Source: an uncultured Propionibacteriaceae bacterium (GTDB lineage Bacteria > Actinomycetota > Actinomycetes > Propionibacteriales > Propionibacteriaceae). From it: a DNA stretch of 40,728 bases. Where the stretch lies: contig CADCUO010000005.1 of assembly GCA_902805915.1 (NCBI GenBank), forward strand, positions 1-40,728, read 5' to 3'. This document shows positions 34,440-38,094 of the stretch, piece by piece. The notes beneath the pieces were generated by a model. The model did no database searches. It was not told where the DNA came from and saw nothing but the letters and a program-made list of their open reading frames with translations. Positions within the stretch are counted from its first letter, which is position 1. Each line of letters opens with the position of its first letter. The position numbers and the translations under genes were made by a program.

Positions 34440-36125
34440 CTACGCCTCTACTACGACCGGGACGATCATCGGCCGCCGACGGTAGGTGTCGCTGACCCAC
34501 TTGCCGAGCTGGCGGCGGATCAGCTGCTGCAGCCCGTACGAGTCGTCCACACCGTCAGCCAAGGCCGTCTCAAGGGCGGTAGTGAGCTGCGGCCGGATGG
34601 TGTCGAAGGCGGAGTCGTCCTCGACGAACCCCCGAGCATGCACGTCCGGGCCGCTGATGATGCGTTGCGAGCGGATGTCGACCACGGCGATCACCGAGAT
34701 GAAGCCCTCCTCCCCCAGGATGCGACGGTCCTTCAGCGACGCCTCGGAGATGTCGCCGACAGTCGTACCGTCGACGAAGATATAGCCGGCATCGACCTTG
34801 CCGACCACCTCGGCCCGGCCCCGGTGCAGGTCGACGACGACGCCGTCCTCGGCCACGATGACCTTGTCGGCGTCAACGCCGGTAGCGCGGGCGAGGTCGC
34901 CGTTGGCGATCAGGTGCCGGACCTCGCCGTGTACCGGCATCACGTGCTTCGGCTTGACGATGTTGTAGCAGTAGAGCAGCTCGCCGGCGCTGGCGTGGCC
35001 GGACACGTGCACCATCGCGTTCCCCTTGTGCACGACATGGGCGCCGAGCCGGGCCAGACCGTTGATCACCCGGTAGACGGCGTTCTCGTTGCCGGGGATG
35101 AGCGAGCTGGCCAGGACCACGGTGTCGCCCGACTTCAGCTGGATGACCGGGTGCTCACGGTTTGCCATCCTGGACAGCGCCGACAGCGGCTCTCCCTGGG
35201 AGCCGGTGGAGATGATCACCACCTCCTCCGGTTTGTAGTTGTCGATGTCGCGAAGCTCGATCAGGGTGTTCGCCGGTATATGCAGATAGCCGAGGTCGCG
35301 GGCCACCCCCATGTTCCGCAGCATGGAACGGCCGACGTAGACAACTTTCCGCCCATCAGCCACCGCGGCGTCGAGCACCTGCTGGACCCGGTGCACGTGG
35401 GAGGCGAAGCACGCCACGATCACCCGCTGGGTGCTGCGGGCGAAGACACGCTCCAGCGCCGGCGCAATGTCCTTCTCCGGCGTGGTGAACCCGGGCACCT
35501 CGGCGTTGGTGGAGTCCACCAGGAACAGGTCCACCCCCTCCTCCCCCACCCGGGCGAAGGCGCGCAGGTCGGTGAGCCGGCCGTCCAGCGGGAGCTGGTC
35601 CATCTTGAAGTCACCGGTGTGCAGGATCGTGCCCGCCGAGGTCCGTACCACCACCGCCAGCGCATCCGGGATGGAGTGGTTGACAGCGATGAACGCGAGG
35701 TCGAACGGGCCGACGGTGACCCGGTCGTTGTCCTCGACCTGCCGCCGGACCGCGTCCTTGATCCGGTGCTCGCGGATCTTCTCGTTGACCAGCGCCAAGG
35801 TGAGCCGTGAGCCGATCAGCGGGATGTCGTTGCGCTGACGCAGCAGGTACGGGACGGCGCCGATGTGGTCCTCGTGACCGTGGGTGAGGATCAGACCAAC
35901 GACGTCGTCCAGCCGGTCGGCGATGGCCTCGAACCCGGGAAGGATCAGGTCCACACCGGGATGGTCGTCCTCGGGAAACAGCACCCCGCAGTCGATCAGC
36001 AGCAGCTTGTCGTCGAGCTCCAGGACCGCCATGTTCCGCCCGACATCGCCCAGCCCGCCAAGCGCGATGATGCGGAGTACGCCGCTGCGAAGCTTGGGGG
36101 GTGTGTGAAGACTGCTGGCTGCCAT
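34440..36125 (-). CDS. rnj: ribonuclease J
   Basis: The protein has 561 residues from the ATG at 36125 (MAASSLHTPPKLRSGVLRI). The ORF track start is 31 codons too far upstream. The metallo-beta-lactamase motif is THGHEDHIG (81-89), followed by HTGDFKMDQ and the beta-CASP part (VACFASHVHRVQQ, STGSQGEPLSAL, VSGHASAGEL). The enzyme is both a 5' exonuclease and an endonuclease in mRNA decay and rRNA maturation. dapA often lies upstream in actinobacteria, but here the gap holds a hairpin, a CRP-like dyad and an MMPL remnant. Confidence 0.96.
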   Translation of the reverse strand: MAASSLHTPPKLRSGVLRIIALGGLGDVGRNMAVLELDDKLLLIDCGVLFPEDDHPGVDLILPGFEAIADRLDDVVGLILTHGHEDHIGAVPYLLRQRNDIPLIGSRLTLALVNEKIREHRIKDAVRRQVEDNDRVTVGPFDLAFIAVNHSIPDALAVVVRTSAGTILHTGDFKMDQLPLDGRLTDLRAFARVGEEGVDLFLVDSTNAEVPGFTTPEKDIAPALERVFARSTQRVIVACFASHVHRVQQVLDAAVADGRKVVYVGRSMLRNMGVARDLGYLHIPANTLIELRDIDNYKPEEVVIISTGSQGEPLSALSRMANREHPVIQLKSGDTVVLASSLIPGNENAVYRVINGLARLGAHVVHKGNAMVHVSGHASAGELLYCYNIVKPKHVMPVHGEVRHLIANGDLARATGVDADKVIVAEDGVVVDLHRGRAEVVGKVDAGYIFVDGTTVGDISEASLKDRRILGEEGFISVIAVVDIRSQRIISGPDVHARGFVEDDSAFDTIRPQLTTALETALADGVDDSYGLQQLIRRQLGKWVSDTYRRRPMIVPVVVEA

Positions 36126-36165: not shown

Positions 36166-36207
36166 AGTCCGTGGTCGCCTGCTCGGGGGTTCAGGTAACC
36201 ACGGACT
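36166..36207 (-). promoter_or_regulatory. long hairpin 41 bases upstream of rnj
   Basis: AGTCCGTGGT and ACCACGGACT pair perfectly, and after a two-base mismatch zone CCTG pairs with CAGG around a 10-base loop. On the minus strand this would fold in the 5' untranslated region of rnj, where ribonuclease genes are sometimes self-regulated. No U-tract follows on either strand. It could also be a leftover terminator. Confidence 0.5.
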
Positions 36208-36252
36208 CGCCTAGACATCGCTAAGGTTGGGCCCGATGTTACGCGGCAGGAC

Positions 36253-36268
36253 AGTGACCTGCATCACA
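36253..36268. promoter_or_regulatory. CRP/GlxR-type dyad
   Basis: AGTGACCTGCATCACA has a perfect GTGA-N6-TCAC core, and 9 of 10 bases match the TGTGA-N6-TCACA consensus of CRP-family regulators. It is about 130 bases upstream of rnj and just before the MMPL remnant. Regulation of either side is an inference. Confidence 0.35.
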
Positions 36269-36328
36269 GCGCCAATCCAAAGTGTTGGCTGACCGCTCCC
36301 GAGACGCTCACGCTCGGGCGAACGTTGG

Positions 36329-36576
36329 GCGATCACTACCAGAGCTGGGGTCCTGGCCGGGACGTTGGCACTCGTGGCGGTCATCGCGCTGACCGCCTTC
36401 CAGCCGAGGGCCTTCCCCACGGCGTCGGTATGCTCATAGGCACCCTGGCGGTGCGCATGGTGTTCGCCCCAGCGGTACTGACCCTCCTTGGCCCCGCAGC
36501 GAGCTGGCCGAGCCACCGCATCACCACGGGTGAAGGACACATGACTGAGACTGCGACCACAGGTGATCATGACTGA
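36329..36576 (+). pseudogene. decayed C-terminal fragment of an MMPL-family transporter
   Basis: Frame 1 reads AITTRAGVLAGTLALVAVIALTAFQPRAFP until about 36418 and then hits TAG at 36437-36439. A frame shifted by one base continues the same helix pattern as VGMLIGTLAVRMVFAPAVLTLLGPAASWPS and ends at TGA 36574-36576. The combined sequence matches the typical end of MMPL transporters (a VLIDTxVVRxxxxPAxxxLLGxxxWWP-like pattern). No start or N-terminal 600 or more residues are present, so this is a remnant. Its end overlaps the DUF2993 gene by 8 bases. Positions 36226-36328 show nothing else. Confidence 0.7.
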
Positions 36577-37279
36577 CCACACCGAGTCCCCGCTCCGGCG
36601 GCGCCGGCAGCGGGTAGCCATCATCGCCCTGGGAATCGTGGTGGTGCTGTGGGGCGTCGACACACTGGCTCGGATCGGCGCCGAGTTCCTGGTCGCTCGC
36701 GAGATCCAGAACACCGCCGGCCTGATCGACCGCCCTGACGTAGACGTTCGTGGCCTGGTATTTCTGCCCCAGGTCATCCGCGGCAGCTACGGCCGGGTGG
36801 ATATCACTACCCGTGGCATCACCCAGGGCCCGGTTCCGGTGGACCGTCTGGAGTCGCAGCTGTTCGACGTTCGGGTGCCGTTCCGCGACGTACTGGCTCG
36901 CGACGTACGTCGGGTGGCGATCGCCAGGTCGGTCGAACGAGCCACGCTGGGCTACCCGGCGCTCAACGCCTACCTCGAGGAGAGTGGCCGGTCGCTGCAA
37001 CTGGGTCCGGCCAACGATGGTGGGCTCGAGCTGACCGGGTCGGTGGACGTGGCCGGCCAGCCGATAGCGGTCCGTACCAACGCGACCCTGTCCGTCACCG
37101 ACGGAGGCGTCTCGGTCACGCCCGGCCAGAACGGTGGCGGGGCGAATCTCGGGCAGCTGCTGGCCTTCACGGTGCCGGTGGGGGAACTGCCGTTCGGGCA
37201 CCAGCTGAGGAACGCGACCCCGAAGGAGTCCGGGATCGAGCTCGAGGCCCAGGCTGAAGGTGTCGTGCTGCAGTCCTGA
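36569..37279 (+). CDS. DUF2993 (LmeA-like) membrane-anchored protein
   Basis: This 236-residue protein has a basic N-terminus and a membrane helix (RVAIIALGIVVVLWGVDTL), followed by the DUF2993 domain (VDVRGLVFLPQVIRGSYGRVDI ... DVRVPFRDVLARD). In mycobacteria LmeA, of the same family, binds lipids and supports lipomannan assembly. The ATG at 36569 is preferred over the ORF-track GTG because it makes an 8-base overlap (ATGACTGA) with the MMPL remnant. It converges with dapB, with a 2-base gap. Confidence 0.82.
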   Translation: MTDHTESPLRRRRQRVAIIALGIVVVLWGVDTLARIGAEFLVAREIQNTAGLIDRPDVDVRGLVFLPQVIRGSYGRVDITTRGITQGPVPVDRLESQLFDVRVPFRDVLARDVRRVAIARSVERATLGYPALNAYLEESGRSLQLGPANDGGLELTGSVDVAGQPIAVRTNATLSVTDGGVSVTPGQNGGGANLGQLLAFTVPVGELPFGHQLRNATPKESGIELEAQAEGVVLQS

Positions 37280-37281
37280 GT

Positions 37282-38094
<813 letters not shown>

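Follow-up and report, generated by a model that had tools for sequence, protein, structure and literature searches.

An mmpL tail and an intact lmeA-like gene stand where related genomes carry a resident lmeA and a GNAT gene in the dapB-rnj interval of an uncultured Propionibacteriaceae bacterium

The window analyzed here, i.e., the whole stretch of 40,728 nucleotides, contains between dapB and rnj the tail of an mmpL transporter gene followed by an intact lmeA-like (DUF2993) gene. Together they occupy the place that a GNAT gene and a different, resident lmeA hold in related genomes. It is likely, with a probability of roughly 0.85, that the lmeA of the window came from an mmpL-lmeA pair that is kept at other places in relatives, and that it displaced the resident lmeA and the GNAT gene. 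Of the two neighbors, mmpL is most simply read as a dead scar and lmeA as a gene that is kept.

The mmpL remnant

The remnant consists of two pieces on the forward strand. The first, at positions 36329 to 36415, was identified by tblastn and alignment; it comprises 29 codons, reads AITTRAGVLAGTLALVAVIALTAFQPRAF and aligns with residues 669-697 of the MMPL protein (750 residues) encoded by a genome of the same genus, G003. The second, at positions 36424 to 36516, was identified by the Pfam MMPL family and by tblastn and comprises 31 codons in the next frame, reading VGMLIGTLAVRMVFAPAVLTLLGPAASWPSH. They are separated by a frameshift spacer of 8 bases (positions 36416 to 36423), where the aligned relatives have 9, which by this alignment represents the loss of one base. 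When the whole window was searched with the MMPLs of relatives using tblastn, both pieces were matched jointly, in the correct order and spacing and at the extreme C-terminus of the MMPLs, with E-values of 8e-10 to 3e-6, and chance is therefore excluded as an explanation. Only the second piece matched the Pfam MMPL profile (PF03176) above the cut-off of 20.5 bits (22.8 bits, E 5e-5, profile positions 277-311 of 333); this piece was also recovered independently by a genome-wide Pfam search with the MMPL family. Positions 36329-36415 and 36424-36516 together encode the final ~60 residues of an MMPL transporter, compared with ~750 residues, organized in two transmembrane bundles and extracytoplasmic loops, in the full-length relatives.

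These results bear out the preliminary description of the region, made from the letters alone, which had read it as the end of an MMPL protein split by a one-base shift, with no N-terminus left. Further parts of mmpL were sought in the window with the MMPLs of relatives and nothing above noise was found. The alternative that correction of a sequencing error would yield a longer open reading frame did not hold up: a stop codon at 36290-36292 closes this frame upstream of the first piece, so that it would be open for less than 100 codons even without the one-base shift.

The tail is considerably diverged. It is 57-62% identical to the MMPLs of four relatives, compared with 80-88% among these four themselves, and 16 of the 45 residues that are invariant in the four are altered in the tail, including an exchange of Asp to Gly in GLLLDT. 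The tail does not retain the full set of conserved residues of the C-terminal membrane segment. With one base and many conserved residues lost, the remnant is shown, on the level of its sequence, not to encode a working transporter. A search of the draft genome of origin with the MMPL of a relative revealed no second copy of the subfamily of the tail; the matches were the tail itself and other MMPL-like genes (C144, 32% identity; C14). The MMPL of C144 was considered as a nearer relative of the tail and rejected, since its match is far weaker (E 0.055 vs. 1e-8 to 1e-12).

Downstream of the second piece its frame stays open up to the start of lmeA. This last, unconserved part of the mmpL frame (positions 36517 to 36576) ends with a TGA stop codon at 36574-36576, which overlaps the start of lmeA as ATGACTGA at positions 36569-36576. 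Both this overlap and the extent of the remnant had been given exactly in the preliminary description.

The lmeA gene of the window and mmpL-lmeA pairs in relatives

The lmeA-like gene (DUF2993, PF11209) extends from position 36569 to 37279 on the forward strand and is intact, its protein matching the Pfam LmeA profile over the full length (91.5 bits, profile positions 2-217 of 217). Its start codon, an ATG at 36569, is preceded by the ribosome-binding sequence AGGTGATC, and by eye the N-terminus of the protein shows an arginine-rich start followed by a hydrophobic stretch, VAIIALGIVVVLWGV. Mycobacterial LmeA (Rv0817c and M. smegmatis LmeA), which belongs to the same DUF2993/LmeA family, is a lipid-binding protein of the TULIP type acting outside the cytoplasmic membrane (PMC6791001, PMC7643837). 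However, the protein of the window is not an LmeA proper by the NCBIfam model NF038021 (36.7 bits, below the cut-off of 325), and its gene neighbors an mmpL tail instead of the thioredoxin gene found next to mycobacterial lmeA (PMC7643837). A scan of the protein against named genomes gave no match.

An mmpL gene lies directly upstream of a DUF2993/LmeA-like gene in four relatives, namely G003, Microlunatus kandeliicorticis (G002) and G005, which belong to the same genus as the window genome, and G040 from a sister genus. The intact upstream mmpL that was to be expected in relatives is thus present in G003, G002 and G040, and in G005 it is cut off by the end of the contig. The mmpL stop and lmeA start overlap by 8 bases in G003 and G002 (GTGGCTGA and GTGCCTGA, respectively), just as in the window, and by 4 bases in G005. 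A more distant pair was found in G116. Overall, the distribution of this MMPL is patchy, with matches at E below 1e-60 in 5 of 118 genomes sampled from the family, three of these matches being only 39-40% identical. Among the open-access papers searched, none treating MMPL together with DUF2993 was found. Directly upstream of mmpL, G003 and M. kandeliicorticis carry a small gene of 178-210 residues (L024:5416-5949 and L025:9929-10558), which has no Pfam match above cut-off and, to judge from its sequence, a possible membrane segment. This gene, of which the window shows nothing above noise, may be part of the mmpL-lmeA unit.

In the phylogenetic tree, the LmeA of the window falls into a clade with the mmpL-linked LmeAs of G003, M. 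kandeliicorticis, G005 and G040 (support 100/100) and apart from the LmeAs encoded next to dapB in the same genus as the window. With 35-45% identity to the mmpL-linked LmeAs, which share 39-57% with each other, its divergence is about that found among the other members of this clade. Close to its C-terminus, 8 residues present in the four mmpL-linked relatives are absent, which could indicate early decay. The 19 further genomes of the genus each have one or two LmeA genes, while the window genome has one. The lmeA of the window is the sole LmeA gene found in the available sequence, an 84%-complete draft in 250 contigs, whose uncovered portion could still contain a second lmeA or the remainder of mmpL.

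The pair of the M. kandeliicorticis type is one of the closest known systems, sharing with the window the MMPL subfamily of the tail, the LmeA clade, the adjacency of the genes and, in three of the four genomes (G002, G003, G005), the stop/start overlap. It differs in that mmpL is full-length (apart from the contig-cut gene of G005) and located outside the dapB-rnj interval, whereas the window has the tail alone, inside this interval.

The dapB-rnj interval and the replaced segment

The usual gene order in the genus is pnp, M16 peptidase, dapB, lmeA, GNAT (on the other strand) and rnj, and the resident dapB-lmeA-GNAT-rnj order is found in most of its genomes. Among these is G016, whose locus is nearest to that of the window (88% protein identity for dapB and 86% for rnj) and in which the two genes of the interval were confirmed as members of the LmeA and GNAT families. 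Both native flanks of the window, rnj, encoding RNase J (positions 34440 to 36125, reverse strand, assigned by Pfam and relatives), and dapB (positions 37282 to 38022, reverse strand, assigned by relatives and colinearity), are colinear with G016 at ~82-85% DNA identity. Colinearity stops at 36208, at a hairpin of the rnj leader, and restarts exactly at 37282, at the stop codon of dapB. A CRP/GlxR-like palindrome, AGTGACCTGCATCACA, lies at positions 36253 to 36268. Six relatives likewise have a palindrome of the form GTGA-N6-TCAC in front of rnj, and the native sequence upstream of rnj therefore extends to at least 36268. Taken together with the match to G016 from 37282 onward, this means that the foreign piece starts within positions 36269 to 36328, the zone between the end of the palindrome and the beginning of MMPL homology, and ends by 37281, the right junction being placed at positions 37280 to 37281 just before the dapB stop codon. 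Neither junction showed a recognizable signature of a mobile element, and no remnant of the GNAT gene was found above noise in the window.

The lmeA of the window is oriented opposite to the resident lmeA, which runs in the direction of dapB. That it represents the resident gene merely inverted was ruled out by the tree and by the attached mmpL tail. Another close counterpart is the LmeA-like gene linked to dapB in genomes of the genus such as G016, which shares the Pfam family and the genomic interval with the gene of the window but differs in clade, in direction and in the additional presence of GNAT. The preliminary description had further suggested that an intact mmpL-DUF2993 operon existed here and decayed by deletion. 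Such a pair does exist in relatives; however, in G003, M. kandeliicorticis and G005 it sits away from dapB and rnj, and their dapB-rnj interval carries the different, resident lmeA and a GNAT gene. The pair of the window is therefore foreign or relocated rather than a native operon that decayed in place.

The hairpin of the rnj leader (positions 36166 to 36208, reverse strand) belongs to the native flank outside the foreign segment and is supported by colinearity with G016 and by covariation. It has an invariant core, CUGAACCCCCGAGCAG, and a strongly covarying stem with changes on both sides in 14 of 17 pairs; its covariation score was 0.64, whereas shuffles gave 0.19 and slid controls no more than 0.15. 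A search against Rfam yielded no match. With a model of the hairpin, strong copies were found in 18 of 20 genomes of the genus, with one to a dozen per genome and often several, also upstream of other genes; those elsewhere in the window genome include G000:C22:20702-20759, G000:C67:60024-60081 and G000:C192:13495-13552. One copy was found in large genomes of another family of the same class, which resemble Streptomyces in size and gene order, between thyX-like and dapA genes and ahead of rnj; a targeted term search of Streptomyces RNase papers gave no mention of the hairpin. It is a possible candidate for a cis-acting RNA controlling RNase J, and this side finding is possibly of greater interest than the mmpL scar. 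Additionally, two genomes of the genus contain a second, diverged rnj copy, L067 (G000:C175:2623-4281) and L068 (G010:C1:1932939-1934600), which are 56% and 64% identical to the RNase J of the window, respectively. In the single-contig genome G011, rnj is split over two frames near codon 254 (L061, G011:C1:1323361-1325041), by either a frameshift or a sequencing error.

Proposed history and implications

Comparison with G016 and with the other genomes of the genus indicates that the dapB-rnj interval received part of an mmpL-lmeA pair, inverted, and that the resident lmeA and GNAT were lost to it. This fragment may have come by transfer from a different species or by relocation inside the genome. 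Only the final ~60 codons of mmpL arrived or survived, the truncation having occurred either on arrival or by later deletion. A somewhat less than even chance is given to the more specific course that a complete mmpL-lmeA operon was inserted and that mmpL was shortened to a remnant at this site afterwards, which sets the history of the preliminary description one step later. The tail and lmeA retain the operon junction with its stop/start overlap, and the tail carries mutations from after its arrival, as this course would have it; yet neither another piece of mmpL nor a trace of the small upstream membrane gene is present, and the tail starts at most 60 bp from native rnj upstream sequence. 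Given these absent remains and this nearness, a full-length stage is neither needed nor excluded.

That the tail was kept for a purpose, the open frame 36325-36576 being translated as a leader which couples ribosomes to lmeA or as a small membrane peptide, is improbable. Such a role could be read into the frame of the second piece, open as it is to the overlap with lmeA, and into an in-frame ATG at 36541 preceded by GAAGGA, but the alteration of more than a third of the residues invariant in relatives and the ribosome-binding sequence that lmeA has of its own speak against it. Even less credence is given to an assembly artefact, in which the binning and assembly of a metagenome misjoined a piece from another organism into the dapB-rnj interval. 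The arrangement was indeed seen in this single assembly only, a draft in 250 contigs (84% complete); however, two false joins would be needed, on either side of a ~1-kb piece and exactly at homologous gene borders, and the codon-position GC contents of lmeA (0.75/0.47/0.84) are similar to those of dapB (0.77/0.52/0.80).

Following the displacement, the incoming lmeA stayed intact, and since it is the only LmeA found, it has probably assumed the envelope-lipid role of the displaced copy outside the membrane. For its transcription the gene probably relies on the promoter region common to it and the divergent rnj, a region that formerly served GNAT, and its translation probably starts from its own ribosome-binding site, perhaps aided by ribosomes terminating on the overlapping mmpL frame. 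Replacement of a gene at its own locus by a distant homolog is known as xenologous or paralogous in situ displacement. The window likewise has a distant homolog at the locus of a lost resident gene; unlike in a plain case, the newcomer is inverted, GNAT was removed as well and a scar of the former operon partner is visible.

The truncated neighbor gene thereby records the provenance of an intact one, a clear and ordinary example of genome history. Tentatively, and with considerable doubt, it can be proposed that LmeA function is required in the genus and that mmpL-linked and dapB-linked LmeAs are interchangeable, such that a transporter-linked LmeA replaced the housekeeping copy and then lost its transporter. 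If this interchangeability is true, the mmpL-lmeA pair would be linked to the lipid pathway that the housekeeping LmeA serves. More generally, the finding points to a pairing of MMPL and LmeA-like proteins outside mycobacteria, which suggests that the lipid moved by an MMPL transporter may be passed on to its LmeA-like partner or supplied by it.
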